64,000 bases of DNA from Loxodes magnus (Eukaryota > Ciliophora > Karyorelictea > Loxodida > Loxodidae): positions 1 to 64,000 of the forward strand of contig CAMPDV010002386.1 in NCBI GenBank assembly GCA_946699065.1, written 5' to 3'. The notes under the pieces were generated by a model that saw only the letters and a program-made list of their open reading frames with translations, searched no databases and had not been told where the DNA came from. Shown in pieces: positions 16,006 through 64,000 of the stretch (positions within the stretch are counted from its first letter, which is position 1; every line of letters begins with the position of its first letter). The position numbers and the translations under genes were made by a program.

Positions 16006-16036
16006 TATGATCTTCAGACTCTTTTACTTGCTTTTC
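12160..16036 (+). repeat. Nested higher-order repeat, 2,436-bp spacing
   Basis: Within the 5.1-kb block, about 1.44 kb at 12,160-13,600 recur at 14,596-16,036 (12,404 with 14,840; 12,892 with 15,328). A shorter run also repeats at 735 bp (11,669 with 12,404). The same nesting appears in copy 2 (22,438 with 24,791, shortened by the one-monomer loss), so the inner repeat predates the 10-kb duplication. Confidence 0.75.
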
Positions 16037-32255: not shown

Positions 32256-32649
32256 GACTTTCATATATGATCTTCAGATTTCTTTGCTTTTCTACTTCAC
32301 TGTTCTTTGAAATCTCATCTCTCTCATTTTATTACTTTCATATATTATCTTCAGACTCTTTTACTTGCTTTTCTACTTCATTGTTCTTTGAAATCTCATC
32401 TCTCTCATTTTATCACTTTCAATTATGATCTTCAGACTCTTTTACTTGCTTTTCTACTTCACTGTTCTTATAAATCTAATCTCTCTCATTTATTACTTTC
32501 ATATATGATCTTCAGATTTCTTTGCTTTTCTACTTCACTGTTCTTTGAAATCTCATCTCTCTCATTTTATTACTTTCAATTATGATCTTCAGACTCTTTT
32601 ACTTGCTTTTCTACTTCACTTTTCTTTGAAATCTCATCTCTTTCTCATT

Positions 32650-37320: not shown

Positions 37321-39496
37321 ATTTATTACTTTCATATATGATCTTCAGATTTCTTTGCTTTTCTACTTCACTGTTCTTTGAAATCTCATCTCTTTCTCAT
37401 TTTATTACTTTCAATTATGATCTTCAGACTCTTTTACTTGCTTTTCTACTTCACTTTTCTTATAAATCTAATCTCTCTCATTTATTACTTTCATATATGA
37501 TCTTCAGATTTCTTTGCTTTTCTACTTCACTGTTCTTTGAAATCTCATCTCTTTCTCATTTTATTACTTTCAATTATGATCTTCAGACTCTTTTACTTGC
37601 TTTTCTACTTCAATGTTCTTTGAAATCTCATCTCTCTCATTTTATTACTTTCAATTATGATCTTTAGACTCTTTTACTTGCTTTTCTACTTCACTTTTCT
37701 TTGAAATCTCATCTCTCTCATTTTATGACTTTCATATATTATCTTCAGACTCTTTTACTTGCTTTTCTACTTCATTGTTCTTTGAAATCTCATCTCTCTC
37801 ATTTTATCACTTTCAATTATGATCTTCAGACTCTTTTACACACTATTCTACTTCACTTTTCTTTGAAATCTCATCTCTCTCATTTATTACTTTCATATAT
37901 GATCTTCAGACTCTTTTACTTGCTTTTCTACTTCACTTTTCTTTGAAATCTCATCTCTTTCTCATTTTATTACTTTCAATTATGATCTTTAGACTCTTTT
38001 ACTTGCTTTTCTACTTCACTTTTCTTATAAATCTCATCTCTCTCATTTTATTACTTTCAATTATGATTTTCAGACTCTTTTACTTCTTTTTCACTTCACT
38101 GTTCTTATAAATCTAATCTCTCTCATTTTATTACTTTCAATTATGATCTTCAGACTCTTTTACTTGCTTTTCTACTTCACTGTTCTTTGAAATCTCATCT
38201 CTTTCTCATTTTATTACTTTCAATTATGATCTTCAGACTCTTTTACTTGCTTTTCTACTTCACTGTTCTTTGAAATCTAATCTCTCTCATTTTATCACTT
38301 TCAATTATGATCTTCAGACTCTTTTACTTGCTTTTTCTACCTCACTGTTCTTTGAAATCTCATCTCTCTCATTTTATTACTTTCAATTATGATCTTCAGA
38401 CTCTTTTACTTGCTTTTCTACTTCACTGTTCTTTGAAATCTCATCTCTTTCTCATTTTATTACTTTCAATTATGATCTTCAGACTCTTTTACTTGCTTTT
38501 CTACTTCACTGTTCTTATAAATCTAATCTCTCTCATTTATTACTTTCATATATGATCTTCAGATTTCTTTGCTTTTCTACTTCACTTTTCTTTGAAATCT
38601 CATCTCTCTCATTTATTACTTTCATATATGATCTTCAGACTCTTTTACTTGCTTTTCTACTTCACTGTTCTTATAAATCTAATCTCTCTCATTTATTACT
38701 TTCATATATGATCTTCAGATTTCTTTGCTTTTCTACTTCACTGTTCTTTGAAATCTCATCTCTTTCTCATTTTATTACTTTCAATTATGATCTTCAGACT
38801 CTTTTACTTGCTTTTCTACTTCACTTTTCTTTGAAATCTCATCTCTTTCTCATTTTATTACTTTCAATTATGATCTTCAGACTCTTTTACTTGCTTTTCT
38901 ACTTCAATGTTCTTTGAAATCTCATCTCTCTCATTTTATTACTTTCAATTATGATCTTTAGACTCTTTTACTTGCTTTTCTACTTCACTTTTCTTTGAAA
39001 TCTCATCTCTCTCATTTTATGACTTTCATATATTATCTTCAGACTCTTTTACTTGCTTTTCTACTTCATTGTTCTTTGAAATCTCATCTCTCTCATTTTA
39101 TCACTTTCAATTATGATCTTCAGACTCTTTTACTTGCTTTTCTACTTCACTGTTCTTATAAATCTAATCTCTCTCATTTATTACTTTCATATATGATCTT
39201 CAGATTTCTTTGCTTTTCTACTTCACTTTTCTTTGAAATCTCATCTCTCTCATTTTATTACTTTCAATTATGATCTTCAGACTCTTTTACTTGCTTTTCT
39301 ACTTCACTTTTCTTATAAATCTAATCTCTCTCATTTATTACTTTCATATATGATCTTCAGATTTCTTTGCTTTTCTACTTCACTGTTCTTTGAAATCTCA
39401 TCTCTTTCTCATTTTATTACTTTCAATTATGATCTTCAGACTCTTTTACTTGCTTTTCTACTTCACTTTTCTTTGAAATCTCATCTCTTTCTCATT

Positions 39497-42400
39497 TTAT
39501 TACTTTCAATTATGATCTTCAGACTCTTTTACTTGCTTTTCTACTTCAATGTTCTTTGAAATCTCATCTCTCTCATTTTATTACTTTCAATTATGATCTT
39601 TAGACTCTTTTACTTGCTTTTCTACTTCACTTTTCTTTGAAATCTCATCTCTCTCATTTTATGACTTTCATATATTATCTTCAGACTCTTTTACTTGCTT
39701 TTCTACTTCATTGTTCTTTGAAATCTCATCTCTCTCATTTTATCACTTTCATATATTATCTTCAGACTCTTTTACACACTATTCTACTTCACTTTTCTTT
39801 GAAATCTCATCTCTCTCATTTATTACTTTCATATATGATCTTCAGACTCTTTTACTTGCTTTTCTACTTCACTTTTCTTTGAAATCTCATCTCTTTCTCA
39901 TTTTATTACTTTCAATTATGATCTTTAGACTCTTTTACTTGCTTTTCTACTTCACTTTTCTTATAAATCTCATCTCTCTCATTTTATTACTTTCAATTAT
40001 GATCTTCAGACTCTTTTACTTCTTTTTCACTTCACTGTTCTTATAAATCTAATCTCTCTCATTTTATTACTTTCAATTATGATCTTCAGATTTTTATACT
40101 TGCTTTTCTACTTCACTTTTCTTTGAAATCTCATCTCTCTCATTTTATTACTTTCAATTATGATCTTTAGACTCTTTTACTTGCTTTTCTACTTCACTTT
40201 TCTTATAAATCTAATCTCTCTCATTTATTACTTTCATATATGATCTTCAGATTTCTTTGCTTTTCTACTTCACTGTTCTTTGAAATCTCATCTCTTTCTC
40301 ATTTTATTACTTTCAATTATGATCTTCAGACTCTTTTACTTGCTTTTCTACTTCACTGTTCTTTGAAATCTCATCTCTTTCTCATTTTATGACTTTCATA
40401 TATTATCTTCAGACTCTTTTACTTGCTTTTGTACTTCATTGTTCTTTGAAATCTCATCTCTCTCATTTTATCACTTTCAATTATGATCTTCAGACTCTTT
40501 TACTTGCTTTTCTACTTCACTGTTCTTATAAATCTAATCTCTCTCATTTATTACTTTCATATATGATCTTCAGATTTCTTTGCTTTTCTACTTCACTTTT
40601 CTTTGAAATCTCATCTCTCTCATTTATTACTTTCATATATGATCTTCAGACTCTTTTACTTGCTTTTCTACTTCACTGTTCTTATAAATCTAATCTCTCT
40701 CATTTATTACTTTCATATATGATCTTCAGATTTCTTTGCTTTTCTACTTCACTGTTCTTTGAAATCTCATCTCTTTCTCATTTTATTACTTTCAATTATG
40801 ATCTTCAGACTCTTTTACTTGCTTTTCTACTTCACTTTTCTTTGAAATCTCATCTCTTTCTCATTTTATTACTTTCAATTATGATCTTCAGACTCTTTTA
40901 CTTGCTTTTCTACTTCAATGTTCTTTGAAATCTCATCTCTCTCATTTTATTACTTTCAATTATGATCTTTAGACTCTTTTACTTGCTTTTCTACTTCACT
41001 TTTCTTTGAAATCTCATCTCTCTCATTTTATGACTTTCATATATTATCTTCAGACTCTTTTACTTGCTTTTCTACTTCATTGTTCTTTGAAATCTCATCT
41101 CTCTCATTTTATCACTTTCAATTATGATCTTCAGACTCTTTTACTTGCTTTTCTACTTCACTGTTCTTATAAATCTAATCTCTCTCATTTATTACTTTCA
41201 TATATGATCTTCAGATTTCTTTGCTTTTCTACTTCACTGTTCTTTGAAATCTCATCTCTCTCATTTTATTACTTTCAATTATGATCTTCAGACTCTTTTA
41301 CTTGCTTTTCTACTTCACTGTTCTTATAAATCTAATCTCTCTCATTTATTACTTTCATATATGATCTTCAGACTCTTTTACTTGCTTTTCTACTTCACTG
41401 TTCTTATAAATCTAATCTCTCTCATTTATTACTTTCATATATGATCTTCAGACTCTTTTACTTGCTTTTCTACTTCACTGTTCTTTGAAATCTCATCTCT
41501 TTCTCATTTTATTACTTTCAATTATGATCTTCAGACTCTTTTACTTGCTTTTCTACTTCACTTTTCTTTGAAATCTCATCTCTCTCATTTTATTACTTTC
41601 AATTATGATCTTCAGACTCTTTTACTTGCTTTTCTACTTCACTTTTCTTTGAAATCTCATCTCTCTCATTTTATTACTTTCAATTATGATCTTCAGACTC
41701 TTTTACTTGCTTTTCTACTTCACTTTTCTTTGAAATCTCATCTCTCTCATTTATTACTTTCATATATGATCTTCAGATTTCTTTGCTTTTCTACTTCACT
41801 GTTCTTTGAAATCTCATCTCTTTCTCATTTTATTACTTTCAATTATGATCTTCAGACTCTTTTACTTGCTTTTCTACTTCACTTTTCTTTGAAATCTCAT
41901 CTCTTTCTCATTTTATTACTTTCAATTATGATCTTCAGACTCTTTTACTTGCTTTTCTACTTCAATGTTCTTTGAAATCTCATCTCTCTCATTTTATTAC
42001 TTTCAATTATGATCTTTAGACTCTTTTACTTGCTTTTCTACTTCACTTTTCTTTGAAATCTCATCTCTCTCATTTTATGACTTTCATATATTATCTTCAG
42101 ACTCTTTTACTTGCTTTTCTACTTCATTGTTCTTTGAAATCTCATCTCTCTCATTTTATCACTTTCAATTATGATCTTCAGACTCTTTTACACACTATTC
42201 TACTTCACTTTTCTTTGAAATCTCATCTCTCTCATTTATTACTTTCATATATGATCTTCAGACTCTTTTACTTCTTTTTCACTTCACTGTTCTTATAAAT
42301 CTAATCTCTCTCATTTTATTACTTTCAATTATGATCTTCAGATTTTTATACTTGCTTTTCTACTTCACTTTTCTTTGAAATCTCATCTCTCTCATTTTAT

Positions 42401-44164
42401 TACTTTCAATTATGATCTTTAGACTCTTTTACTTGCTTTTCTACTTCACTTTTCTTATAAATCTAATCTCTCTCATTTATTACTTTCAATTATGATCTTC
42501 AGACTCTTTTACTTCTTTTTCACTTCACTGTTCTTATAAATCTAATCTCTCTCATTTTATTACTTTCAATTATGATCTTCAGATTTTTATACTTGCTTTT
42601 CTACTTCACTTTTCTTTGAAATCTCATCTCTCTCATTTTATTACTTTCAATTATGATCTTCAGACTCTTTTACTTGCTTTTCTACTTCACTTTTCTTATA
42701 AATCTAATCTCTCTCATTTTATTACTTTCAATTATGATCTTCAGACTCTTTTACTTGCTTTTCTACTTCACTGTTCTTTGAAATCTCATCTCTTTCTCAT
42801 TTTATGACTTTCATATATTATCTTCAGACTCTTTTACTTGCTTTTGTACTTCATTGTTCTTTGAAATCTCATCTCTCTCATTTTATCACTTTCAATTATG
42901 ATCTTCAGACTCTTTTACTTGCTTTTCTACTTCACTGTTCTTATAAATCTAATCTCTCTCATTTATTACTTTCATATATGATCTTCAGATTTCTTTGCTT
43001 TTCTACTTCACTTTTCTTTGAAATCTCATCTCTCTCATTTATTACTTTCATATATGATCTTCAGACTCTTTTACTTGCTTTTCTACTTCACTGTTCTTAT
43101 AAATCTAATCTCTCTCATTTATTACTTTCATATATGATCTTCAGATTTCTTTGCTTTTCTACTTCACTGTTCTTTGAAATCTCATCTCTTTCTCATTTTA
43201 TTACTTTCAATTATGATCTTCAGACTCTTTTACTTGCTTTTCTACTTCACTTTTCTTTGAAATCTCATCTCTTTCTCATTTTATTACTTTCAATTATGAT
43301 CTTCAGACTCTTTTACTTGCTTTTCTACTTCAATGTTCTTTGAAATCTCATCTCTCTCATTTTATTACTTTCAATTATGATCTTTAGACTCTTTTACTTG
43401 CTTTTCTACTTCACTTTTCTTTGAAATCTCATCTCTCTCATTTTATGACTTTCATATATTATCTTCAGACTCTTTTACTTGCTTTTCTACTTCATTGTTC
43501 TTTGAAATCTCATCTCTCTCATTTTATCACTTTCAATTATGATCTTCAGACTCTTTTACTTGCTTTTCTACTTCACTGTTCTTATAAATCTAATCTCTCT
43601 CATTTATTACTTTCATATATGATCTTCAGATTTCTTTGCTTTTCTACTTCACTGTTCTTTGAAATCTCATCTCTCTCATTTTATTACTTTCAATTATGAT
43701 CTTCAGACTCTTTTACTTGCTTTTCTACTTCACTGTTCTTATAAATCTAATCTCTCTCATTTATTACTTTCATATATGATCTTCAGACTCTTTTACTTGC
43801 TTTTCTACTTCACTGTTCTTATAAATCTAATCTCTCTCATTTATTACTTTCATATATGATCTTCAGACTCTTTTACTTGCTTTTCTACTTCACTGTTCTT
43901 TGAAATCTCATCTCTTTCTCATTTTATTACTTTCAATTATGATCTTCAGACTCTTTTACTTGCTTTTCTACTTCACTTTTCTTTGAAATCTCATCTCTCT
44001 CATTTTATTACTTTCAATTATGATCTTCAGACTCTTTTACTTGCTTTTCTACTTCACTTTTCTTTGAAATCTCATCTCTCTCATTTTATTACTTTCAATT
44101 ATGATCTTCAGACTCTTTTACTTGCTTTTCTACTTCACTTTTCTTATAAATCTAATCTCTCTCA
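39497..44164 (+). repeat. ~4.7-kb block, copy 2 (spacing ~6,847 bp)
   Basis: Partner of 32,650-37,320. Its inner repeat is at 2,415 bp (40,389 with 42,804; 41,006 with 43,421). It includes the doubled tatatt/acacac arrangement near 39,750 also found near 32,903 and 48,754. At the right end the partners part where this copy has ctctcattttattac and the first ctctcatttattac. Confidence 0.75.
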
Positions 44165-46835
44165 TTTTATTACTTTCATATATGATCTTCAGATTTCTTT
44201 GCTTTTCTACTTCACTGTTCTTTGAAATCTCATCTCTCTCATTTTATTACTTTCAATTATGATCTTCAGACTCTTTTACTTGCTTTTCTACTTCACTTTT
44301 CTTTGAAATCTCATCTCTCTCATTTTATGACTTTCATATATTATCTTCAGACTCTTTTACTTGCTTTTCTACTTCATTGTTCTTTGAAATCTCATCTCTC
44401 TCATTTTATTACTTTCATATATGATCTTCAGATTTCTTTGCTTTTCTACTTCACTGTTCTTTGAAATCTCATCTCTCTCATTTTATTACTTTCAATTATG
44501 ATCTTCAGACTCTTTTACTTGCTTTTCTACTTCACTTTTCTTTGAAATCTCATCTCTTTCTCATTTTATTACTTTCAATTATGATCTTCAGACTCTTTTA
44601 CTTGCTTTTCTACTTCAATGTTCTTTGAAATCTCATCTCTCTCATTTTATTACTTTCAATTATGATCTTTAGACTCTTTTACTTGCTTTTCTACTTCACT
44701 TTTCTTTGAAATCTCATCTCTCTCATTTTATGACTTTCATATATTATCTTCAGACTCTTTTACTTGCTTTTCTACTTCATTGTTCTTTGAAATCTCATCT
44801 CTCTCATTTTATCACTTTCAATTATGATCTTCAGACTCTTTTACACACTATTCTACTTCACTTTTCTTTGAAATCTCATCTCTCTCATTTATTACTTTCA
44901 TATATGATCTTCAGATTTCTTTGCTTTTCTACTTCACTTTTCTTTGAAATCTCATCTCTCTCATTTATTACTTTCATATATGATCTTCAGACTCTTTTAC
45001 TTGCTTTTCTACTTCACTGTTCTTATAAATCTAATCTCTCTCATTTATTACTTTCATATATGATCTTCAGATTTCTTTGCTTTTCTACTTCACTGTTCTT
45101 TGAAATCTCATCTCTTTCTCATTTTATTACTTTCAATTATGATCTTCAGACTCTTTTACTTGCTTTTCTACTTCACTTTTCTTTGAAATCTCATCTCTTT
45201 CTCATTTTATTACTTTCAATTATGATCTTCAGACTCTTTTACTTGCTTTTCTACTTCAATGTTCTTTGAAATCTCATCTCTCTCATTTTATTACTTTCAA
45301 TTATGATCTTTAGACTCTTTTACTTGCTTTTCTACTTCACTTTTCTTTGAAATCTCATCTCTCTCATTTTATGACTTTCATATATTATCTTCAGACTCTT
45401 TTACTTGCTTTTCTACTTCATTGTTCTTTGAAATCTCATCTCTCTCATTTTATCACTTTCAATTATGATCTTCAGACTCTTTTACTTGCTTTTCTACTTC
45501 ACTGTTCTTATAAATCTAATCTCTCTCATTTATTACTTTCATATATGATCTTCAGATTTCTTTGCTTTTCTACTTCACTGTTCTTTGAAATCTCATCTCT
45601 CTCATTTTATTACTTTCAATTATGATCTTCAGACTCTTTTACTTGCTTTTCTACTTCACTGTTCTTATAAATCTAATCTCTCTCATTTATTACTTTCATA
45701 TATGATCTTCAGACTCTTTTACTTGCTTTTCTACTTCACTGTTCTTATAAATCTAATCTCTCTCATTTATTACTTTCATATATGATCTTCAGACTCTTTT
45801 ACTTGCTTTTCTACTTCACTGTTCTTTGAAATCTCATCTCTTTCTCATTTTATTACTTTCAATTATGATCTTCAGACTCTTTTACTTGCTTTTCTACTTC
45901 ACTTTTCTTTGAAATCTCATCTCTCTCATTTTATTACTTTCAATTATGATCTTCAGACTCTTTTACTTGCTTTTCTACTTCACTTTTCTTTGAAATCTCA
46001 TCTCTCTCATTTTATTACTTTCAATTATGATCTTCAGACTCTTTTACTTGCTTTTCTACTTCACTTTTCTTATAAATCTAATCTCTCTCATTTTATTACT
46101 TTCATATATGATCTTCAGATTTCTTTGCTTTTCTACTTCACTGTTCTTTGAAATCTCATCTCTCTCATTTTATTACTTTCAATTATGATCTTCAGACTCT
46201 TTTACTTGCTTTTCTACTTCACTTTTCTTTGAAATCTCATCTCTCTCATTTTATGACTTTCATATATTATCTTCAGACTCTTTTACTTGCTTTTCTACTT
46301 CATTGTTCTTTGAAATCTCATCTCTCTCATTTTATTACTTTCATATATGATCTTCAGATTTCTTTGCTTTTCTACTTCACTGTTCTTTGAAATCTCATCT
46401 CTCTCATTTTATTACTTTCAATTATGATCTTCAGACTCTTTTACTTGCTTTTCTACTTCACTTTTCTTTGAAATCTCATCTCTTTCTCATTTTATTACTT
46501 TCAATTATGATCTTCAGACTCTTTTACTTGCTTTTCTACTTCAATGTTCTTTGAAATCTCATCTCTCTCATTTTATTACTTTCAATTATGATCTTTAGAC
46601 TCTTTTACTTGCTTTTCTACTTCACTTTTCTTTGAAATCTCATCTCTCTCATTTTATGACTTTCATATATTATCTTCAGACTCTTTTACTTGCTTTTCTA
46701 CTTCATTGTTCTTTGAAATCTCATCTCTCTCATTTTATCACTTTCAATTATGATCTTCAGACTCTTTTACACACTATTCTACTTCACTTTTCTTTGAAAT
46801 CTCATCTCTCTCATTTATTACTTTCATATATGATC
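42975..46835 (+). repeat. Higher-order repeat, 1,926-bp unit in two adjacent copies (about 24 monomers each)
   Basis: Two adjacent units, about 42,975-44,900 and 44,901-46,835, match at a constant 1,926 bp (43,421 with 45,347; 43,659 with 45,585; 43,983 with 45,909; 44,222 with 46,148; 44,706 with 46,632). I saw no internal register change and no clear base difference in the stretches compared by eye. That makes it the cleanest recent tandem duplication in the window. Confidence 0.85.
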
Positions 46836-47943
46836 TTCAGACTCTTTTACTTGCTTTTCTACTTCACTTTTCTTTGAAATCTCATCTCTTTCTCATTTTA
46901 TTACTTTCAATTATGATCTTTAGACTCTTTTACTTGCTTTTCTACTTCACTTTTCTTATAAATCTCATCTCTCTCATTTTATTACTTTCAATTATGATCT
47001 TCAGACTCTTTTACTTCTTTTTCACTTCACTGTTCTTATAAATCTAATCTCTCTCATTTTATTACTTTCAATTATGATCTTCAGATTTTTATACTTGCTT
47101 TTCTACTTCACTTTTCTTTGAAATCTCATCTCTCTCATTTTATTACTTTCAATTATGATCTTTAGACTCTTTTACTTGCTTTTCTACTTCACTTTTCTTA
47201 TAAATCTAATCTCTCTCATTAATTACTTTCATATATGATCTTCAGATTTCTTTGCTTTTCTACTTCACTGTTCTTTGAAATCTCATCTCTTTCTCATTTT
47301 ATTACTTTCAATTATGATCTTCAGACTCTTTTACTTGCTTTTCTACTTCACTTTTCTTTGAAATCTCATCTCTCTCATTTTATTACTTTCAATTATGATC
47401 TTCAGACTCTTTTACTTGCTTTTGTACTTCATTGTTCTTTGAAATCTCATCTCTCTCATTTTATCACTTTCAATTATGATCTTCAGACTCTTTTACTTGC
47501 TTTTCTACTTCACTGTTCTTATAAATCTAATCTCTCTCATTTATTACTTTCATATATGATCTTCAGATTTCTTTGCTTTTCTACTTCACTTTTCTTTGAA
47601 ATCTCATCTCTCTCATTTATTACTTTCATATATGATCTTCAGACTCTTTTACTTGCTTTTCTACTTCACTGTTCTTATAAATCTAATCTCTCTCATTTAT
47701 TACTTTCATATATGATCTTCAGATTTCTTTGCTTTTCTACTTCACTGTTCTTTGAAATCTCATCTCTTTCTCATTTTATTACTTTCAATTATGATCTTCA
47801 GACTCTTTTACTTGCTTTTCTACTTCACTTTTCTTTGAAATCTCATCTCTTTCTCATTTTATTACTTTCAATTATGATCTTCAGACTCTTTTACTTGCTT
47901 TTCTACTTCAATGTTCTTTGAAATCTCATCTCTCTCATTTTAT
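46190..47943 (+). repeat. Block duplicated at 15,688-bp distance, copy 2
   Basis: Partner of 30,500-32,255. Register is lost on the right where this copy continues with tattactttcaattatgatctt while the first has tatgactttcatatatgatc. The left part overlaps the second unit of the 1,926-bp tandem repeat, so the block boundary was set by more than one exchange. Confidence 0.7.
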
Positions 47944-48364
47944 TACTTTCAATTATGATCTTTAGACTCTTTTACTTGCTTTTCTACTTCACTTTTCTTT
48001 GAAATCTCATCTCTCTCATTTTATGACTTTCATATATTATCTTCAGACTCTTTTACTTGCTTTTCTACTTCATTGTTCTTTGAAATCTCATCTCTCTCAT
48101 TTTATCACTTTCAATTATGATCTTCAGACTCTTTTACTTGCTTTTCTACTTCACTGTTCTTATAAATCTAATCTCTCTCATTTATTACTTTCATATATGA
48201 TCTTCAGATTTCTTTGCTTTTCTACTTCACTTTTCTTTGAAATCTCATCTCTCTCATTTTATTACTTTCAATTATGATCTTCAGACTCTTTTACTTGCTT
48301 TTCTACTTCACTTTTCTTATAAATCTAATCTCTCTCATTTATTACTTTCATATATGATCTTCAG

Positions 48365-50040
48365 ATTTCTTTGCTTTTCTACTTCACTGTTCTTTGAAAT
48401 CTCATCTCTTTCTCATTTTATTACTTTCAATTATGATCTTCAGACTCTTTTACTTGCTTTTCTACTTCACTTTTCTTTGAAATCTCATCTCTTTCTCATT
48501 TTATTACTTTCAATTATGATCTTCAGACTCTTTTACTTGCTTTTCTACTTCAATGTTCTTTGAAATCTCATCTCTCTCATTTTATTACTTTCAATTATGA
48601 TCTTTAGACTCTTTTACTTGCTTTTCTACTTCACTTTTCTTTGAAATCTCATCTCTCTCATTTTATGACTTTCATATATTATCTTCAGACTCTTTTACTT
48701 GCTTTTCTACTTCATTGTTCTTTGAAATCTCATCTCTCTCATTTTATCACTTTCATATATTATCTTCAGACTCTTTTACACACTATTCTACTTCACTTTT
48801 CTTTGAAATCTCATCTCTCTCATTTATTACTTTCATATATGATCTTCAGACTCTTTTACTTGCTTTTCTACTTCACTTTTCTTTGAAATCTCATCTCTTT
48901 CTCATTTTATTACTTTCAATTATGATCTTTAGACTCTTTTACTTGCTTTTCTACTTCACTTTTCTTATAAATCTCATCTCTCTCATTTTATTACTTTCAA
49001 TTATGATCTTCAGACTCTTTTACTTCTTTTTCACTTCACTGTTCTTATAAATCTAATCTCTCTCATTTTATTACTTTCAATTATGATCTTCAGATTTTTA
49101 TACTTGCTTTTCTACTTCACTTTTCTTTGAAATCTCATCTCTCTCATTTTATTACTTTCATATATGATCTTCAGATTTCTTTGCTTTTCTACTTCACTTT
49201 TCTTTGAAATCTCATATCTCTCATTAATTACTTTCATATATGATCTTCAGATTTCTTTGCTTTTCTACTTCACTGTTCTTTGAAATCTCATCTCTTTCTC
49301 ATTTTATTACTTTCAATTATGATCTTCAGACTCTTTTACTTGCTTTTCTACTTCACTTTTCTTTGAAATCTCATCTCTTTCTCATTTTATTACTTTCAAT
49401 TATGATCTTCAGACTCTTTTACTTGCTTTTCTACTTCAATGTTCTTTGAAATCTCATCTCTCTCATTTTATTACTTTCAATTATGATCTTTAGACTCTTT
49501 TACTTGCTTTTCTACTTCACTTTTCTTTGAAATCTCATCTCTCTCATTTTATGACTTTCATATATTATCTTCAGACTCTTTTACTTGCTTTTCTACTTCA
49601 TTGTTCTTTGAAATCTCATCTCTCTCATTTTATCACTTTCATATATTATCTTCAGACTCTTTTACACACTATTCTACTTCACTTTTCTTTGAAATCTCAT
49701 CTCTCTCATTTATTACTTTCATATATGATCTTCAGACTCTTTTACTTGCTTTTCTACTTCACTTTTCTTTGAAATCTCATCTCTTTCTCATTTTATTACT
49801 TTCAATTATGATCTTTAGACTCTTTTACTTGCTTTTCTACTTCACTTTTCTTATAAATCTCATCTCTCTCATTTTATTACTTTCAATTATGATCTTCAGA
49901 CTCTTTTACTTCTTTTTCACTTCACTGTTCTTATAAATCTAATCTCTCTCATTTTATTACTTTCAATTATGATCTTCAGATTTTTATACTTGCTTTTCTA
50001 CTTCACTTTTCTTTGAAATCTCATCTCTCTCATTTTATTA
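48365..50040 (+). repeat. Higher-order repeat, 886-bp unit in two adjacent copies (about 11 monomers each)
   Basis: The order of variants at 48,365-49,150 recurs at 49,251-50,040 with 886-bp spacing (48,563 with 49,449; 48,641 with 49,527; 48,715 with 49,601; 49,050 with 49,936). The junction, about 49,150-49,250, holds a short chimeric stretch with ctcatatctctcattaatt, found again only near 52,038. The unit therefore ends at an unusual monomer. Confidence 0.8.
49158..49260 (+). repeat. Rare 'ctcatatctctcattaatt' monomer at an HOR junction
   Basis: This short-form monomer carries two uncommon changes together, ctcatatctc for ctcatctctc and cattaattac for catttattac. The same pair flanked by the same 'agatttctttgc' monomers occurs once more at about 51,985-52,085, 2,827 bp away. 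It lies between the two 886-bp units and again shortly inside the less ordered right domain, so it marks an exchange between those regions. Confidence 0.7.
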
Positions 50041-53000
50041 CTTTCAATTATGATCTTTAGACTCTTTTACTTGCTTTTCTACTTCACTTTTCTTATAAAT
50101 CTAATCTCTCTCATTTATTACTTTCATATATGATCTTCAGATTTCTTTGCTTTTCTACTTCACTGTTCTTTGAAATCTCATCTCTCTCATTTTATTACTT
50201 TCAATTATGATCTTCAGACTCTTTTACTTGCTTTTCTACTTCACTTTTCTTTGAAATCTCATCTCTTTCTCATTTTATTACTTTCAATTATGATCTTCAG
50301 ACTCTTTTACTTGCTTTTCTACTTCAATGTTCTTTGAAATCTCATCTCTCTCATTTTATTACTTTCAATTATGATCTTTAGACTCTTTTACTTGCTTTTC
50401 TACTTCACTTTTCTTTGAAATCTCATCTCTCTCATTTTATGACTTTCATATATTATCTTCAGACTCTTTTACTTGCTTTTCTACTTCATTGTTCTTTGAA
50501 ATCTCATCTCTCTCATTTTATCACTTTCAATTATGATCTTCAGACTCTTTTACTTGCTTTTCTACTTCACTGTTCTTATAAATCTAATCTCTCTCATTTA
50601 TTACTTTCATATATGATCTTCAGACTCTTTTACTTGCTTTTCTACTTCACTTTTCTTTGAAATCTCATCTCTTTCTCATTTTATTACTTTCAATTATGAT
50701 CTTCAGACTCTTTTACTTGCTTTTCTACTTCACTTTTCTTTGAAATCTCATCTCTCTCATTTTATTACTTTCAATTATGATCTTCAGACTCTTTTACTTG
50801 CTTTTCTACTTCACTTTTCTTTGAAATCTCATCTCTTTCTCATTTTATTACTTTCAATTATGATCTTTAGACTCTTTTACTGCTTTTCTACTTCACTTTT
50901 CTTATAAATCTAATCTCTCTCATTTATTACTTTCATATATGATCTTCAGATTTCTTTGCTTTTCTACTTCACTGTTCTTTGAAATCTCATCTCTCTCATT
51001 TTATTACTTTCAATTATGATCTTCAGACTCTTTTACTTGCTTTTCTACTTCACTTTTCTTTGAAATCTCATCTCTCTCATTTTATTACTTTCAATTATGA
51101 TCTTCAGACTCTTTTACTTGCTTTTCTACTTCACTGTTCTTTGAAATCTCATCTCTTTCTCATTTTATTACTTTCAATTATGATCTTCAGACTCTTTTAC
51201 TTGCTTTTCTACTTCACTGTTCTTTGAAATCTCATCTCTTTCTCATTTTATTACTTTCAATTATGATCTTCAGACTCTTTTACTTGCTTTTCTACTTCAT
51301 TGTTCTTTGAAATCTCATCTCTCTCATTTTATCACTTTCAATTATGATCTTCAGACTCTTTTACTTGCTTTTCTACTTCATTGTTCTTTGAAATCTCATC
51401 TCTCTCATTTTATTACTTTCAATTATGATCTTCAGACTCTTTTACTTACTTTTCTACTTCACTGTTCTTATAAATCTAATCTCTCTCATTTATTACTTTC
51501 AATTATGATCTTCAGACTCTTTTACTTTCTTTTCTACTTCACTGTTCTTTGAAATCTCATCTCTCTCGTTTTATCACTTTCAATTATGATCTTCAGACTC
51601 TTTTACTTGCTTTTCTACTTCAATTTTCTTTGAAATCTCATCTCTCTCATTTATTACTTTCAATTATGATCTTCAGACTCTTTTACTTGCTTTTCTACTT
51701 CACTTTTCTTTGAAATCTCATCTCTCTCATCTTATTACTTTCAAATATGATCTTTAGACTCTTTTACTTGCTTTTCTACTTCACTTTTCTTTGAAATCTC
51801 ATCTCTTTCTCATTTTATTACTTTCATATATGATCTTCAGACTCTTTTACTTCTTTTTCACTTCACTGTTCTTATAAATCTAATCTCTCTCATTTTATTA
51901 CTTTCAATTATGATCTTCAGATTTTTATACTTGCTTTTCTACTTCACTGTTCTTATAAATCTAATCTCTCTCATTTTATTACTTTCATATATGATCTTCA
52001 GATTTCTTTGCTTTTCTACTTCACTTTTCTTTGAAATCTCATATCTCTCATTAATTACTTTCATATATGATCTTCAGATTTCTTTGCTTTTCTACTTCAC
52101 TGTTCTTTGAAATCTCATCTCTTTCTCATTTTATTACTTTCAATTATGATCTTCAGACTCTTTTACTTGCTTTTCTACTTCACTTTTCTTTGAAATCTCA
52201 TCTCTCTCATTTTATTACTTTCAATTATGATCTTCAGACTCTTTTACTTGCTTTTCTACTTCAATGTTCTTTGAAATCTCATCTCTCTCATTTTATTACT
52301 TTCAATTATGATCTTTAGACTCTTTTACTTGCTTTTCTACTTCACTGTTCTTTGAAATCTCATCTCTTTCTCATTTTATTACTTTCAATTATGATCTTCA
52401 GACTCTTTTACTTGCTTTTCTACTTCACTGTTCTTTGAAATCTCATCTCTTTCTCATTTTATTACTTTCAATTATGATCTTCAGACTCTTTTACTGACTT
52501 TTCTACTTCACTGTTCTTTGAAATCTCATCTCTCTCATTTTATTACTTTCAATTATGATCTTCAGACTCTTTTACTTCTTTTTCACTTCACTGTTCTTTG
52601 AAATCTCATCTCTTTCTCATTTTATTACTTTCAATTATGATCTTCAGACTCTTTTACTTGCTTTTCTACTTCACTGTTCTTTGAAATCTCATCTCTTTCT
52701 CATTTTATTACTTTCAATTATGATCTTCAGACTCTTTTACTTTCTTTTCTACTTCACTTTTCTTATAAATCTCATCTCTTTCTCATTTTATTACTTTCAA
52801 TTATGATCTTCAGACTCTTTTACTTGCTTTTCTACTTCACTTTTCTTTGAAATCTCATCTCTCTCATTTTATTACTTTCAATTATGATCTTCAGACTCTT
52901 TTACTTGCTTTTCTACTTCACTGTTCTTTGAAATCTCATCTCTTTCTCATTTTATTACTTTCAATTATGATCTTCAGATTTTTATACTTGCTTTTCTACT

Positions 53001-53573
53001 TCACTGTTCTTTGAAATCTCATCTCTCTCATTTATTACTTTCATATATGATCTTCAGATTTCTTTGCTTTTCTACTTCACTGTTCTTTGAAATCTCATCT
53101 CTCTCATTTTATTACTTTCAATTATGATCTTCAGACTCTTTTACTTGCTTTTCTACTTCACTGTTCTTTGAAATCTCATCTCTCTCATTTTATTACTTTC
53201 AATTATGATCTTCAGACTCTTTTACTTGCTTTTCTACTTCACTGTTCTTTGAAATCTCATCTCTTTCTCATTTTATTACTTTCAATTATGATCTTCAGAC
53301 TCTTTTACTTGCTTTTCTACTTCACTTTTCTTTGAAATCTCATCTCTCTCATTTTATTACTTTCAATTATGATCTTCAGACTCTTTTACTTCTTTTTCAC
53401 TTCACTGTTCTTTGAAATCTCATCTCTTTCTCATTTTATTACTTTCAATTATGATCTTCAGACTCTTTTACTTGCTTTTCTACTTCAATGTTCTTTGAAA
53501 TCTCATCTCTCTCGTTTTATCACTTTCAATTATGATCTTCAGACTCTTTTACTTGCTTTTCTACTTCACTTTT

Positions 53574-54065
53574 CTTATAAATCTCATCTCTTTCTCATTT
53601 TATTACTTTCAATTATGATCTTCAGACTCTTTTACTTTCTTTTCTACTTCACTTTTCTTATAAATCTAATCTCTCTCATTTATTACTTTCAATTATGATC
53701 TTCAGACTCTTTTACTTTCTTTTCTACTTCACTGTACTTATAAATCTCATCTCTTTCTCATTTTATTACTTTCAATTATGATCTTCAGACTCTTTTACTT
53801 GCTTTTCTACTTCACTTTTCTTATAAATCTCATCTCTTTCTCATTTTATTACTTTCAATTATGATCTTCAGACTCTTTTACTTTCTTTTCTACTTCACTT
53901 TTCTTATAAATCTAATCTCTCTCATTTATTACTTTCAATTATGATCTTCAGACTCTTTTACTTTCTTTTCTACTTCACTGTACTTATAAATCTCATCTCT
54001 TTCTCATTTTATTACTTTCAATTATGATCTTCAGACTCTTTTACTTGCTTTTCTACTTCACTTTT
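53574..54065 (+). repeat. Short higher-order repeat, 246-bp trimer in two tandem copies
   Basis: A three-monomer unit repeats at 246 bp; the rare ctgtacttata change lies at 53,733 and again at 53,979. Each trimer contains two ttactttctttt monomers and one ttacttgctttt monomer. A third copy of the diagnostic monomer lies at 55,617, 1,638 bp on. Confidence 0.75.
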
Positions 54066-57000
54066 CTTATAAATCTAATCTCTCTCATTTATTACTTTCA
54101 TATATGATCTTCAGACTCTTTTACTTTCTTTTCTACTTCAAAGTTCTTTGAAATCTCATCTCTTTCTCATTTTATTACTTTCAATTATGATCTTCAGACT
54201 CTTTTACTTGCTTTTCTACTTCACTGTTCTTTGAAATCTCATCTCTTTCTCATTTTATTACTTTCAATTATGATCTTCAGACTCTTTTACTTGCTTTTCT
54301 ACTTCAATGTTCTTTGAAATCTCATCTCTTTCTCATTTTATTACTTTCAATTATGATCTTCAGATTTTTATACTTGCTTTTCTACTTCACTGTTCTTTGA
54401 AATCTCATCTCTCTCATTTTATTACTTTCAATTATGATCTTCAGACTCTTTTACTTGCTTTTCTACTTCACTTTTCTTATAAATCTCATCTCTTTCTCAT
54501 TTTATTACTTTCAATTATGATCTTCAGACTCTTTTACTTTCTTTTCTACTTCACTTTTCTTATAAATCTCATCTCTTTCTCATTTTATTACTTTCAATTA
54601 TGATCTTCAGACTCTTTTACTTTCTTTTCTACTTCACTGTTCTTTGAAATCTAATCTCTCTCATTTATTACTTTCAATTATGATCTTCAGACTCTTTTAC
54701 TTTCTTTTCTACTTCATTGTTCTTTGAAATCTCATCTCTCTCATTTTATTACTTTCAATTATGATCTTCAGACTCTTTTACTTTCTTTTCTACTTCACTT
54801 TTCTTATAAATCTCATCTCTCTCATTTTATTACTTTCATATATGATCTTCAGACTCTTTTACTTGCTTTTCTACTTCACTTTTCTTTGAAATCTCATCTC
54901 TCTCATTTTATTACTTTCAATTATGATCTTCAGACTCTTTTACTTGCTTTTCTACTTCAATGTTCTTTGAAATCTCATCTCTCTCATTTTATTACTTTCA
55001 ATTATGATCTTTAGACTCTTTTACTTGCTTTTTCTACCTCACTGTTCTTTGAAATCTCATCTCTTTCTCATTTTATTACTTTCAATTATGATCTTCAGAC
55101 TCTTTTACTTGCTTTTCTACTTCACTGTTCTTTGAAATCTCATCTCTTTCTCATTTTATTACTTTCAATTAGGATCTTCAGACTCTTTTACTTGCTTTTC
55201 TACTTCACTGTTCTTTGAAATCTCATCTCTCTCATTTTATTACTTTCATATATGATCTTCAGATTTTTATACTTGCTTTTCTACTTCACTTTTCTTATAA
55301 ATCTCATCTCTTTCTCATTTTATTACTTTCAATTAATATCTTCAGACTCTTTTACTTTCTTTTCTACTTCACTTTTCTTTGAAATCTCATCTCTCTCATT
55401 TTATTACTTTCAATTATGATCTTCAGACTCTTTTACTTGCTTTTCTACTTCACTTTTCTTTGAGATCTCATCTCTCTCTCATTTTATCACTTTCAATTAT
55501 GATCTTCAGACTCTTTTACTTTCTTTTCTACTTCACTTTTCTTATAAATCTAATCTCTCTCATTTATTACTTTCAATTATGATCTTCAGACTCTTTTACT
55601 TTCTTTTCTACTTCACTGTACTTATAAATCTCATCTCTTTCTCATTTTATTACTTTCAATTATGATCTTCAGACTCTTTTACTTGCTTTTCTACTTCACT
55701 GTTCTTATAAATCTAATCTCTCTCATTTATTACTTTCATATATGATCTTCAGACTCTTTTACTTTCTTTTCTACTTCACTTTTCTTATAAATCTCATCTC
55801 TCTCATTTTATTACTTTCAATTATGATCTTTAGACTCTTTTACTTGCTTTTTCTACCTCACTGTTCTTTGAAATCTCATCTCTCTCATTTTATTACTTTC
55901 AATTATGATCTTCAGACTCTTTTACTTGCTTTTCTACTTCACTTTTCTTATAAATCTAATCTCTCTCATTTATTACTTTCATATATGATCTTCAGACTCT
56001 TTTACTTTCTTTTCTACTTCAAAGTTCTTTGAAATCTCATCTCTTTCTCATTTTATTACTTTCAATTATGATCTTCAGACTCTTTTACTTGCTTTTCTAC
56101 TTCATTGTTCTTTGAAATCTCATCTCTCTCATTTTATTACTTTCAATTATGATCTTCAGACTCTTTTACTTTCTTTTCTACTTCACTTTTCTTATAAATC
56201 TCATCTCTTTCTCATTTTATTACTTTCAATTATGATCTTCAGACTCTTTTACTTGCTTTTCTACTTCACTTTTCTTATAAATCTCATCTCTTTCTCATTT
56301 TATTACTTTCAATTATGATCTTCAGATTTTTATACTTGCTTTTCTACTTCACTGTTCTTTGAAATCTCATCTCTCTCATTTTATTACTTTCATATATGAT
56401 CTTCAGACTCTTTTACTTGCTTTTCTACTTCACTTTTCTTTGAAATCTCATCTCTCTCATTTTATTACTTTCAATTATGATCTTCAGACTCTTTTACTTG
56501 CTTTTCTACTTCACTGTTCTTTGAAATCTCATCTCTTTCTCATTTTATTACTTTCAATTAATATCTTCAGACTCTTTTACTTGCTTTTTCTACTTCACTT
56601 TTCTTTGAAATCTCATCTCTCTCATTTTATTACTTTCAATTATGATCTTCAGACTCTTTTACTTGCTTTTCTACTTCACTTTTCTTTGAGATCTCATCTC
56701 TCTCTCATTTTATCACTTTCAATTATGATCTTCAGACTCTTTTACTTGCTTTTTCTACCTCACTGTTCTTTGAAATCTCATCTCTCTCATTTTATTACTT
56801 TCAATTATGATCTTCAGACTCTTTTACTTGCTTTTCTACTTCACTTTTCTTTGAGATCTCATCTCTCTCTCATTTTATCACTTTCAATTATGATCTTCAG
56901 ACTCTTTTACTTGCTTTTTCTACCTCATTGTTCTTTGAAATCTCATCTCTCTCATTTTATTACTTTCAATTATGATCTTCAGACTCTTTTACTTGCTTTT

Positions 57001-60000
57001 CTACTTAACTTTTCTTTGAAATCTCATCTTTCTCATTCTATTACTTTCAATTATGATCTTCAGACTCTTTTACTTGCTTTTCTACTTCACTTTTCTTTGA
57101 AATCTCATCTCTCTCATTTTATTACTTTCAATTATGATCTTCAGACTCTTTTACTTGCTTTTCTACTTCACTTTTCTTATAAATCTAATCTCTCTCATTT
57201 ATTACTTTCAATTATGATCTTCAGACTCTTTTACTTGCTTTTTCTACCTCACTGTTCTTTGAAATCTCATCTCTCTCATTTTATTACTTTCATATATGAT
57301 CTTCAGATTTTTATACTTGCTTTTCTACTTCACTGTTCTTTGAAATCTCATCTCTTTCTCATTTTATTACTTTCAATTATGATCTTCAGACTCTTTTACT
57401 TGCTTTTCTACTTCAATGTTCTTTGAAATCTCATCTCTCTCATTTTATTACTTTCAATTATGATCTTCAGACTCTTTTACTTGCTTTTCTACTTCACTTT
57501 TCTTTGAAATCTCATCTCTTTCTCATTTTATTACTTTCAATTATGATCTTCAGACTCTTTTACTTGCTTTTCTACTTCATTGTTCTTTGAAATCTCATCT
57601 CTCTCATTTTATTACTTTCAATTATGATCTTCAGACTCTTTTACTTTCTTTTCTACTTCACTTTTCTTATAAATCTCATCTCTTTCTCATTTTATTACTT
57701 TCAATTATGATCTTCAGACTCTTTTACTTGCTTTTCTACTTCACTGTTCTTTGAAATCTCATCTCTCTCATTTTATTACTTTCAATTATGATCTTTAGAC
57801 TCTTTTACTTGCTTTTTCTACCTCACTGTTCTTTGAAATCTCATCTCTCTCATTTTATTACTTTCAATTATGATCTTCAGACTCTTTTACTTGCTTTTCT
57901 ACTTCACTGTTCTTTGAAATCTCATCTCTTTCTCATTTTATTACTTTCAATTATGATCTTCAGACTCTTTTACTTGCTTTTCTACTTCACTGTTCTTTGA
58001 AATCTCATCTCTTTCTCATTTTATTACTTTCAATTAATATCTTCAGACTCTTTTACTTGCTTTTTCTACTTCACTTTTCTTTGAAATCTCATCTCTCTCA
58101 TTTTATTACTTTCAATTATGATCTTCAGACTCTTTTACTTGCTTTTCTACTTCACTGTTCTTTGAAATCTCATCTCTCTCATTTTATTACTTTCAATTAT
58201 GATCTTCAGACTCTTTTACTTGCTTTTCTACTTCACTTTTCTTTGAGATCTCATCTCTCTCTCATTTTATCACTTTCAATTATGATCTTCAGACTCTTTT
58301 ACTTGCTTTTCTACTTAACTTTTCTTTGAAATCTCATCTTTCTCATTCTATTACTTTCAATTATGATCTTCAGACTCTTTTACTTGCTTTTCTACTTCAC
58401 TGTTCTTTGAAATCTCATCTCTCTCATTTTATTACTTTCAATTATGATCTTCAGACTCTTTTACTTTCTTTTCTACTTCAATGTTCTTTGAAATCTCATC
58501 TCTCTCATTTTATTACTTTCAATTATGATCTTTAGACTCTTTTACTTGCTTTTCTACTTCACTTTTCTTTGAAATCTCATCTCTTTCTCATTTTATTACT
58601 TTCAATTAGGATCTTCAGACTCTTTTACTTGCTTTTCTACTTCACTGTTCTTTGAAATCTCATCTCTCTCATTTTATTACTTTCATATATGATCTTCAGA
58701 TTTTTATACTTGCTTTTCTACTTCACTGTTCTTTGAAATCTCATCTCTTTCTCATTTTATTACTTTCAATTAGGATCTTCAGACTCTTTTACTTGCTTTT
58801 CTACTTCACTTTTATTTGAAATCTCATCTCTTTCTCATTTTATTACTTTCAATTATGATCTTTAGACTCTTTTACTTGCTTTTTCTACCTCACTGTTCTT
58901 ATAAATCTCATCTCTCTCATTTTATTACTTTCATATATGATCTTCAGATTTTTATACTTGCTTTTCTACTTCACTTTTCTTTGAAATCTCATCTCTCTCA
59001 TTTTATTACTTTCATATATGATCTTCAGACTCTTTTACTTGCTTTTCTACTTCACTTTTCTTTGAAATCTCATCTCTCTCATTTTATTACTTTCAATTAT
59101 GATCTTCAGACTCTTTTACTTGCTTTTCTACTTCACTTTTCTTTGAAATCTCATCTCTTTCTCATTTTATTACTTTCATATATGATCTTCAGACTCTTTT
59201 ACTTGCTTTTCTACTTCACTGTTCTTTGAAATCTCATCTCTTTCTCATTTTATTACTTTCAATTATGATCTTCTGACTCTTTTACTTCTTTTTCTACTTC
59301 ACTGTTCTTTGAAATATCATCTTTCTCATTTTATTAATTTCAATTATGATCTTCAGACTCTTTTACTTGCTTTTTCTACCTCACTGTTCTTTGAAATCTC
59401 ATCTCTCTCATTTTATTACTTTCAATTATGATCTTTAGACTCTTTTACTTGCTTTTTCTACCTCACTGTTCTTATAAATCTCATCTCTCTCATTTTATTA
59501 CTTTCATATATGATCTTCAGATTCTTTTACTAGCTTTTTCTACCTCACTGTTCTTTGAAATTTTATCTCTTTCTCATTATATTACTTTCAATTATGATCT
59601 TCAGACTCTTTTACTTTCTTTTCTACTTCAAAGTTCTTTGAAATCTCATCTCTCTCTCATTTTATTACTTTCAATTATGATCTTCAGACTCTTTTACTTG
59701 CTTTTTCTACCTCACTGTTCTTTGAAATCTAATCTCTCTCATTTCATTACTTTCATATATGATCTTCAGATTTTTATACTTGCTTTTCTACTTCACTTTT
59801 CTTATAAGACTAATCTCTCTCATTTTATTACTTTCAATTATGATCTTCAGACTCTTTTACTTGCTTTTCTACTTCACTTTTCTTATAAATCTAATCTCTC
59901 TCATTTTATTACTTTCAATTATGATCTTCAGATTTTTATACTTGCTTTTCTACTTCACTTTTCTTATAAATCTAATCTCTCTCATTTTATTACTTTCAAT

Positions 60001-61052
60001 TATGATCTTCAGACTCTTTTACTTGCTTTTTCTACCTCACTGTTCTTTGAAATCTCATCTCTCTCATTTTATTACTTTCAATTATGATCTTCAGACTCTT
60101 TTACTTGCTTTTCTACTTCACTTTTCTTTGAAATCTCATCTCTTTCTCATTTTATTACTTTCATATATGATCTTCAGACTCTTTTACTTGCTTTTCTACT
60201 TCACTGTTCTTATAAATCTCATCTCTTTCTCATTTTATTACTTTCAATTATGATCTTCAGACTCTTTTACTTCTTTTTCTACTTCACTTTTATTTGAAAT
60301 ATCATCTTTCTCATTTTATTAATTTCAATTATGATCTTCAGACTCTTTTACTTGCTTTTTCTACCTCACTGTTCTTTGAAATCTCATCTCTCTCATTTTA
60401 TTACTTTCATATATGATCTTCAGATTTCTTTGCTTTTCTACTTCACTGTTCTTTGAAATCTCATCTCTCTCATTTTATTACTTTCATATATGATCTTCAG
60501 ACTCTTTTACACACTATTCTACTTCACTTTTCTTTGAAATCTCATCTCTCTCATTTTATTACTTTCAATTATGATCTTCAGACTCTTTTACTTGCTTTTC
60601 TACTTCACTGTTCTTTGAAATCTCATCTCTCTCATTTTATTACTTTCAATTATGATCTTCAGACTCTTTTACTTCTTTTTCACTTCACTGTTCTTATAAA
60701 TCTCATCTCTCTCATTTTATTACTTTCAATTATGATCTTCAGACTCTTTTACTTGCTTTTCTACTTCAATGTTCTTTGAAATCTCATCTCTCTCATTTTA
60801 TTACTTTCAAATATGATCTTCAGACTCTTTTACACACTATTCTACTTCACTTTTCTTTGAAATCTCATCTCTCTCATTTATTACTTTCAATTATGATCTT
60901 CAGACTCTTTTACACACTATTCTACTTCACTTTTCTTTGAAATCTCATCTCTCTCATTTTATTACTTTCAATTATGATCTTCAGACTCTTTTACTTCTTT
61001 TTCACTTCAATGTTCTTATAAATCTAATCTCTCTCATTTTATTACTTTCAAT

Positions 61053-61145
61053 TATGATCTTCAGACTCTTTTACTTGCTTCTTCTACTTCATGATCTTCA
61101 GACTGTTCTTTGAAATCTCATCTCTCTCATTTTATTACTTTCAAA
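61053..61145 (+). repeat. Chimeric 93-bp monomer near the array edge
   Basis: This monomer is 93 bp, the longest I found. After ttctacttc a second atgatcttcagact segment (about 61,091-61,104) is inserted before the normal gttctttgaaatc. The inserted bases equal the start of a monomer, so the change looks like slippage or exchange between out-of-register copies. The next monomer (from 61,146) is also a hybrid: agactttttatac combines the agactctttt and agatttttat forms. Confidence 0.85.
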
Positions 61146-61239
61146 TATGATCTTCAGACTTTTTATACTTGCTTTTCTACTTCACTTTTCTTTGAAATCT
61201 CATCTCTTTCTCATTTTATTACTTTCATATATGATCTTC

Positions 61240-61290
61240 AGACTCTTTTACTTAATTTTTCTGCATTATTTATAAGTTTAAACTTTTTTT
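61240..61290. other. Right boundary of the satellite array
   Basis: The last recognisable monomer begins at about 61,230 and reads normally through cagactcttttactt (to about 61,254). Then it departs from the consensus: aatttttctgcattatttataag could be a badly eroded monomer continuation (compare ttttctacttcac and cttataaatc), after which no match remains. No target-site duplication, transposon end or other junction signature is visible. Confidence 0.8.
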
Positions 61291-63490: not shown

Positions 63491-63678
63491 AATGATCACT
63501 TGATGTATCTCTACTTGTCCTCCATGCTCAGTGTTACATTAGACATAGTACAATTCTAAAAACTTAATCCATAGTCAGCGTATACTTTGCTCCAGTCAGT
63601 CTATATAATTAATTGGTAGATTCGAACTTACCTATTGTTAGTTGTTAGTATCTACTCCATTCAATAACCTTCCTAATT

Positions 63679-64000
63679 TCATCTTCGAATGACGTAATTA
63701 TTCGTTGAACTTCCATTCCATTTATCACCTGTACTCGATACCAACCAATTGTTGTCCTTAGATAATGATAGACTTCCTGCATAGTCAGAATTATTTAAGA
63801 TACATACACATTATCCATTATTGATATTTCATATTCTTATGGTCTTGTCATAGTGATCCAGATAAGATATACTTGTTGTTACTTGAGAATATTACCGATA
63901 AGACAAAACGAGAATGTCCAGAAAGAACCTTTGTACATTATTATGTCTTAGAGTTCCATAGTCTCACCCTATTATCTACACTTCCCGATACGATGAACTC
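63679..64000 (-). pseudogene. WD40-repeat protein fragment, about three blades, interrupted (pseudogene, or gene in a stop-reassigned code)
   Basis: Reading leftward from 64,000, the minus strand encodes FIVSGSVDNRVRLWN, the end of one blade. After a short linker with two adjacent TAA codons (63,943-63,938) come VLSGHSRFVLSVIF and NNKYILSGSL, a full second blade with its Gly-His pair. At 63,850 one extra base shifts the frame, and DKTIRI follows with TGA where the blade's Trp belongs (63,831-63,829), then NINNG, TAA (63,813-63,811), CVCIL, and a weaker third blade (SLSLSKDNNWLVSSTGD). The structural Asp residues are 42 and about 41 codons apart, as in WD40 proteins, if the stop codons are counted as residues. 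The fragment runs off the window, so the start and total length are unknown. WD40 proteins are beta-propeller scaffolds for protein-protein contacts; the specific protein cannot be named. WD40 identity is fairly sure; whether it is dead or recoded is open. Confidence 0.7.

Follow-up and report, generated by a model that had tools for sequence, protein, structure and literature searches.

The WD40 gene fragment at one end of a 64,000-nucleotide stretch of the Loxodes magnus assembly, hereafter called the window, belongs to a large gene family with a conserved architecture. Taken together, we put the probability at roughly two in three that three things hold jointly: a host with recoded stop codons, a damaged family member in the window, and propellers diversified at hotspot positions that would form a recognition repertoire like that of the fungal HNWD receptors. 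The hypervariable family to which the blades belong is not visible from the window.

To describe the family, the assembly was searched as a whole (705,730,643 bases, 7,843 contigs). A 21-base signature, picked for being kept across aligned copies, gave 72 exact matches including the window and none with the reversed control; a few of these matches may be duplicate contigs. A 500-base query from the window returned 962 first-pass candidates, 40 of which were scored. From the 39 scored matches besides the window, 20 other copies were picked by hand, mostly high-scoring ones, and aligned; the 19 left out include C320, whose coordinates are those of C744. Three pairs of contigs of unequal length (C43/C417, C81/C449 and C744/C320) have identical starts over the 300-400 bases compared. 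These are possibly duplicate or haplotype contigs, and the family counts may include such duplicates.

A single reading frame runs from the ATG to the intron in 16 of the 20 fetched copies (733-898 codons). The exceptions are L031, L037, L046 and L042, the last of which is truncated where its contig ends and is also frame-broken in its blades; the window copy does not keep a single frame either. Within the 3'-end region, L031 and L046 have frame-breaking indels of their own, and L042 has three additional bases with the frame kept.

Sequence and model together give the members the same order of parts: a RING-like finger, a helical Gln-rich middle, pentapeptide repeats and usually seven WD40 blades. 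Eight Cys/His residues in RING-like spacing were invariant in 15/15 aligned in-frame copies (L040 left out). Pfam scans of the N-terminal part covered six of the 16 available proteins, with E values up to 1 and filters that drop most matches above 0.1. In these scans, pentapeptide matches above the cut-off were found in five of six proteins and RING-type matches remained below it in all six (best E per protein 0.026-0.58), and neither NACHT or HET domains nor a B-box were listed for any of the six. One member, L036, was followed to the structural level. Compared with the PDB, it gave a weak match to the TRIM32 RING (E 0.38-0.59), and the WD40 profile PF00400 matched with an E value of 3.1e-75. 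In the AlphaFold2 model of this protein the seven-bladed WD40 part reached a pLDDT of about 90 and the N-terminal half was poor. Foldseek placed the propeller near WDR5, PkwA and a designed seven-bladed protein, with TM-scores of up to 0.94 (target length).

The interior blade is a 41-codon unit repeated at a step of 123 nt. Among the 16 in-frame copies, the number of interior units is five in 14, seven in one and four in one; with the two C-terminal blades this makes seven blades as a rule. The interior blades are near-identical down to their silent sites, and the exceptions fall chiefly at positions 2, 3, 5, 21 and 23 of 41. This was described in a filtered set of 77 interior blades out of 88 selected, from 20 of the 21 copies and with the window copy included. 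Among the first 29 positions, entropy exceeded 1 bit only at 2, 3, 5, 6, 21 and 23, position 6 being nearly two-state (Ala or Ser). The five variable residues occurred in 71 different combinations among the 77 blades. Because the residue filter fixes some framework residues, the 16 in-frame copies were counted again with no filter applied.

The hotspot codons change far faster than silent sites. In the unfiltered set (65 blades from 16 copies, first blades omitted), pN was 0.438 and pS 0.124 at positions 2, 3, 5, 21 and 23, a ratio of 3.5 in which pN is inflated, as these five positions were chosen by entropy from the same data. At positions 3, 5 and 21, hotspots known and fixed beforehand, pN was 0.506 and pS 0.173 (ratio 2.9). 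The other blade codons of the same 65 blades, with position 6 set aside, had a pN of 0.018 and a pS of 0.040. When first blades were included (81 blades), pN/pS was 1.82 at the five positions, 2.11 at 3, 5 and 21 and 0.33 in the framework; the ratios are lower because the first blades have diverged as a whole. Little excess was seen in the blades of rank four from the C-terminal end, which are mostly first blades (pN 0.530, pS 0.458). In the filtered set, pN at positions 2, 3, 5, 6, 21 and 23 was greater than framework pS in 200/200 resamples, with the reservation that family copies are related, not independent, and P values are overstated.

Regarding the location of these positions, the top-face hotspots of WD40 propellers, R1-2, R1 and D-1, correspond in G-beta to residues 16, 18 and 34 according to the available part of PMC3419727. 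Positions 3, 5 and 21 share the spacings of 2 and 16 between these hotspots as given there, as well as the V-R1-R2-V signature. Judging from this spacing, the variable positions probably lie at or beside top-face binding hotspots. A second reference is provided by the HET-D/E repeats of Podospora, which are classed in the accessible text of PMC12222747 by seven positions with high dN/dS (10, 11, 12, 14, 30, 32 and 39); the same text puts the number of codon positions under diversifying selection at four. With a shift of 9, positions 2, 3, 5, 21 and 23 coincide with HET-D/E positions 11, 12, 14, 30 and 32 of that numbering. An overlap of five positions arose by chance in 42 of 100,000 random sets, the best shift being allowed.

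It could be argued that the variable residues are non-adaptive, so that free drift or a local mutator acts on them and gene conversion homogenises the framework. We regard this as unlikely, and it is the explanation that competes best with selection. The near-identical framework codons do imply conversion. Moreover, pS is 0.12 at the variable codons and 0.04 in the framework, about three times as high, so that a locally raised mutation rate is possible. However, free drift would not lift pN to about ten times the framework pS, conversion should homogenise the variable codons as well, and the variable positions coincide with binding hotspots.

Block-wise exchange between copies, which would also suit a non-adaptive origin, is indicated by the loci on C840 (L032) and C2153 (L033). 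Ahead of the blades, these show no mismatch in windows over 3.75 kb and no difference in 1,548 nt; likewise, no mismatch was found in the 285 nt that follow the interior blades or in about the last 1 kb compared. The blade array itself has 29 mismatches, and the block around the intron and the 3' end has 13 mismatches and 13 gap columns. Within the array, 14/25 variable residues differ, compared to 8/540 of the other blade nucleotides. Blade exchange or replacement would leave this pattern, the alternative being a chimeric assembly. A milder form of it was found between L034 and L038 (18/25 variable residues, 18/540 other blade nucleotides, 62/1,320 nucleotides before the blades).

Further evidence against a non-adaptive origin comes from a second kind of WD40 array. 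The contig C1503 (104,612 bp) carries a 126-bp array that encodes 42-residue WD40 blades. In 186 units of this type, taken from eight overlapping loci and thus not all distinct, entropy was 1.0-1.6 bits at positions 3, 5 and 21 and 0.5 at position 23. The second array therefore varies at 3, 5 and 21 too, though variation is also found off the hotspots (1.2 at 39 and 40, 0.9 at 42). Position 3 is a TGA codon in 97/186 units. Long WD40 arrays are present on C1503, C119, C9, C1832, C620, C272 and C6957, with matches that step by 126 bp or multiples of it, and their open frames under the standard code reach 2,099 codons (C119) and 2,899 codons (C6957). WD40 blades thus seem to have become satellite-scale arrays. 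Arrays of 123 bp with the same blade type as the family lie downstream of gene copies at C1443:50000 (L073), C1443:101000 (L089) and C968:9000 (L087), and it is possible that they serve as blade reservoirs for exchange.

The surroundings of the gene copies were sampled at downstream points only, about 5 kb from 40 gene copies (L077-L116) and less at contig starts. A satellite was present at the sampled point in 25/40 copies, with units of about 77-96 bp, and in 25/25 of these the G-rich strand ran along the gene. An exact 31-base core occurs in 15/116 loci. Of the remaining points, 11/40 were non-repeated, three lay in WD40-like repeats (C968, C1443 and, as judged by period and eye, C80), and the C16 sample, taken at the start of the contig no more than 2.2 kb past the gene, had no satellite. 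A coding reading of the 81-bp satellite of the window was set aside on inspection by eye, in which the satellite drifts in phase when laid out in rows of 81 bases. Many gene copies are situated close to the end of a contig and face outward into a satellite, and Loxodes telomeres have eluded detection as far as the available text of PMC11441545 goes. The satellites downstream of the gene are nevertheless weak candidates for chromosome ends, because of the 11 non-repeated and three WD40-like samples and the satellite-free C16.

These surroundings bear on a reading in which the gene does not serve as a receptor and is carried along by a dispersed repeat, up to 7 kb long, that spreads together with satellite arrays. 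In most of the 20 copies flanking sequence is indeed repeated as well as the gene, over up to 7 kb (a shorter stretch in L035 and L041), and the uniform orientation of the 25 satellites would suit such a unit. What makes it improbable is the coding sequence itself: pN/pS elsewhere in the gene (15 copies) was 0.37 in the RING-like part, 0.51 in the middle, 0.25 in the pentapeptide part and 0.29 in the C-terminal blades, a range of 0.25-0.51 across the other protein parts, and one frame is kept in most copies (16/20).

Turning to the window itself, the minus strand of 63,501-64,000 was translated with stops read as residues and matched PF00400 with an E value of 2.9e-10 and 40.7 bits (cut-off 27 bits; main-frame match in two stretches), which confirms that the original prediction had named the right protein family. 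The second frame of this region gave an E value of 5.5e-4 and 20.8 bits, below the cut-off, and the product of the whole window-copy gene gave 4.9e-62. The ATG of this gene is at contig position 66,079, beyond the window, and the contig runs to 71,778. The features of the gene end are collected in Table 1.

Table 1. Features of the WD40 gene end and its downstream satellite in the window
Feature	Position	Strand	Basis
81-bp satellite array, 757 units, downstream of the gene	1..61253	.	Tandem Repeats Finder
3' end of RING-like/pentapeptide/WD40 gene	63496..64000	-	Pfam WD40, reading frame, 20-copy alignment
Stop codon TGA	63496..63498	-	TGA in 21/21 copies
Putative phase-0 intron, 31 nt, GTAAGT...TAG	63601..63631	-	21-copy alignment
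Missing base, private, restores family frame	63672..63678	-	0/20 other copies
TGA = Trp, not in the earlier list	63679..63681	-	21 copies: TGG 15, TGA 6
TAA = Gln in Gly-x-Cys	63811..63813	-	21 copies: CAA 11, TAA 6, TAG 3, CAG 1
TGA at conserved WD40 Trp	63829..63831	-	21 copies: TGA 19, TTA 2
Extra base, +1 frame change, private	63851..63855	-	0/20 other copies
Two adjacent TAA = Gln-Gln	63938..63943	-	21 copies: TAA 16/TAG 3/CAA 2; TAA 19/CAA 2

The in-frame TAA TAA, TAA and TGA codons were read from the sequence exactly where they had been placed before, and the one-base frame change reported at 63,850 is present as one extra base. A second frame change, the base missing at ~63,675, had gone unreported. 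The window copy is therefore broken or misassembled, since both the frame change and the one-base deletion are private to it: it is one damaged member of the family, either through mutation in a dying copy or through an assembly error. We reject as extremely unlikely that a programmed +1 shift or an intron conserved in the family lies at 63,850. Ciliates such as Euplotes do shift frames, according to a published abstract, but the extra base occurs in none of the 20 other copies, and the frame is regained further downstream through a private deletion.

The putative intron further along measures 28-35 nt across the 21 copies, not always in multiples of three, with the donor GTAAGT in 20/21 and the acceptor TAG in 20/21 as aligned. 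According to the accessible text of PMC11441545, Loxodes magnus introns have a mean of 19.3 bp and 93% of them are at most 25 bp, so that 31 nt is long for Loxodes on these figures. The flank past the TGA stop has many indels among the copies. Upstream of the gene and outside the window, the motif AAGAGCTGCGCACCAA...GTGCTACG(C/T)GCTCTATAATC was observed twice, on C2386 at ~67,683-67,725 and at 68,065-68,105.

In this host UAA and UAG stand for Gln, and UGA within genes for Trp, as shown by actin matches, Gln-tRNA-like genes and the interchange of codons in the 20 other copies. Concerning actin, a conserved gene elsewhere of the kind that had been suggested for checking, 96/96 matches listed carry in-frame TAA/TAG and some also in-frame TGA, many of the 96 being equal-score duplicates or fragments. 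Actin matches with equal score cluster on C266, C524, C707, C711, C1162, C1812 and C437; apparently, actin is another amplified family. For tRNAs, a Gln-tRNA pattern made of the anticodon and T arms gave 474 matches in the genome and none with the reversed control. Among the 100 listed of these 474, tallied by eye and matching by pattern without a tRNA-model score, the anticodons were UUA in 28, CUA in 41, UUG in 18 and CUG in 13. Candidates for the suppressor tRNAs proposed as a check were found for the Gln type (UUA/CUA); a tRNA-Trp pattern for a UGA suppressor gave 0 matches in the assembly, which has little weight. The tRNA-like genes stand in tandem on C130, C112, C154, C103 and C158, and C130 has a unit with a CUA-anticodon Gln-tRNA-like gene every 588 bp. 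In the window gene family (21 copies), TGA and TGG are swapped at alignment columns 278 (6/15) and 366 (3/18). TGA is also the stop codon in 21/21 of these copies.

Regarding the code itself, nothing here is new: table 27 is already known. In the available part of PMC11441545, the Loxodes magnus MAC assembly is described as 706 Mbp, rich in tandem repeat and read with code table 27, the karyorelict table in which UAR is Gln and UGA is Trp or stop. The original prediction had left two branches open for the stops, and it is the reassigned code that was borne out, by actin, the Gln-tRNA pattern and the 20 other gene copies; a gene decaying by several transitions does not account for stops that occupy the same columns in most of the 21 copies. 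A standard-code pseudogene whose four stops are mutations could point to the two private one-base indels, and is for the stops ruled out as practically negligible by the actin matches, the UUA/CUA-anticodon Gln-tRNA-like genes, the column-matched stops with CAA, CAG or TGG as alternatives, and the purifying selection outside the variable codons. Such recoded genes resemble pseudogenes under the standard code, which is a warning for annotation.

Next, codon use at the variable positions was counted in exon 1 of the 16 in-frame copies, which are related, so that P values are overstated. Gln at variable positions was encoded by TAA/TAG in 42/42 cases with no CAA/CAG, and in the N-terminal part by 938 TAA/TAG versus 402 CAA/CAG. 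Similarly, Trp at variable positions was TGA in 18/18 cases, and the other codons comprised 28 TGA and 129 TGG. The cause may be a simple one, as TAT, TCA, TTA, TGA, TAA and TAG are close neighbours. Recoded stops would put Gln and Trp one change from Tyr, Ser and Leu codons. Adenine mutagenesis of the DGR type is disfavoured; the variable codons differ at all bases.

In comparison to known systems, the family would be HNWD-like in its working and is not a member of HNWD, because no NACHT or HET match was listed in the six proteins scanned. The Podospora HNWD proteins (HET-D, HET-E, HET-R) likewise have near-identical WD40 repeats in variable number, and the Loxodes family shares with them high internal conservation and diversifying positions that, by their spacing, would lie on the top face. 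HNWD proteins combine NACHT and HET domains; in the six Loxodes proteins scanned no such Pfam match was listed, and a RING-like finger and pentapeptides are found instead. HNWD proteins usually have 11 repeats of 42 amino acids and are fungal, whereas the Loxodes family mostly has seven blades of 41 amino acids, counts 72 signature matches in one assembly and belongs to a ciliate. Positions 10 and 39 of the published HNWD numbering, as far as available, lack a variable counterpart in Loxodes, and the two-state position 6 lacks one in HNWD.

TRIM proteins such as TRIM32 consist of a RING, a B-box, a coiled coil and an NHL propeller. The Loxodes family resembles them in having a RING-like finger, a helical middle and a C-terminal propeller, and differs in that no B-box match was listed in the six proteins scanned, the propeller is WD40 and not NHL, and pentapeptides are added.

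WD40 proteins that are highly repetitive (HR) and have diverse hotspots are already known (Hu et al. 2017, PMC5587647), amounting in the available text of that article to some 2% in Fungi and Protista. The Loxodes family has the same high internal identity and diverse hotspot sites as described there, and stands apart from the HR set in its large size, its single architecture and the pN/pS values measured for it. The word 'ciliate' has 0 occurrences in the text of PMC5587647 as available, and the open literature searched, including the accessible parts of PMC12222747, PMC4986451, PMC3419727 and PMC5587647, gave no report of WD40 hypervariability in ciliates or Loxodes, with absence unproven. 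Hotspot diversity of WD40 proteins is itself known, and the fungal HNWD receptors are the example that has been studied in detail.

A possible mode of action can be sketched from these features. The variable top face of each member would bind a different protein. Blades would be shuffled and replaced between copies, so that diversity would result from blade exchange plus selection. The N-terminal part would convert binding to a response, perhaps ubiquitylation, the RING-like finger having either itself or the bound partner as its target. Defence, whether against ingested bacteria or viruses or against mobile elements, would fit as well as self/non-self recognition during mating.

To our knowledge, little is known about non-self recognition in single-celled eukaryotes other than fungi. 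The most far-reaching version of our reading is tentative, and we hold it at somewhat less than even odds. It is that a free-living ciliate keeps dozens of RING-like WD40 proteins as an immune-like or self/non-self recognition repertoire, that their blades are swapped and mutated at the positions used in fungal incompatibility, and that recoded stops supply Trp and Gln, giving a wider one-mutation reach on the binding surface. If expressed, the family would be a test case of a large, internally conserved, surface-diversified, receptor-like set in a ciliate, one that has apparently converged on the same individual positions as the incompatibility receptors of fungi. In that case it would also link a variant genetic code with receptor diversification.
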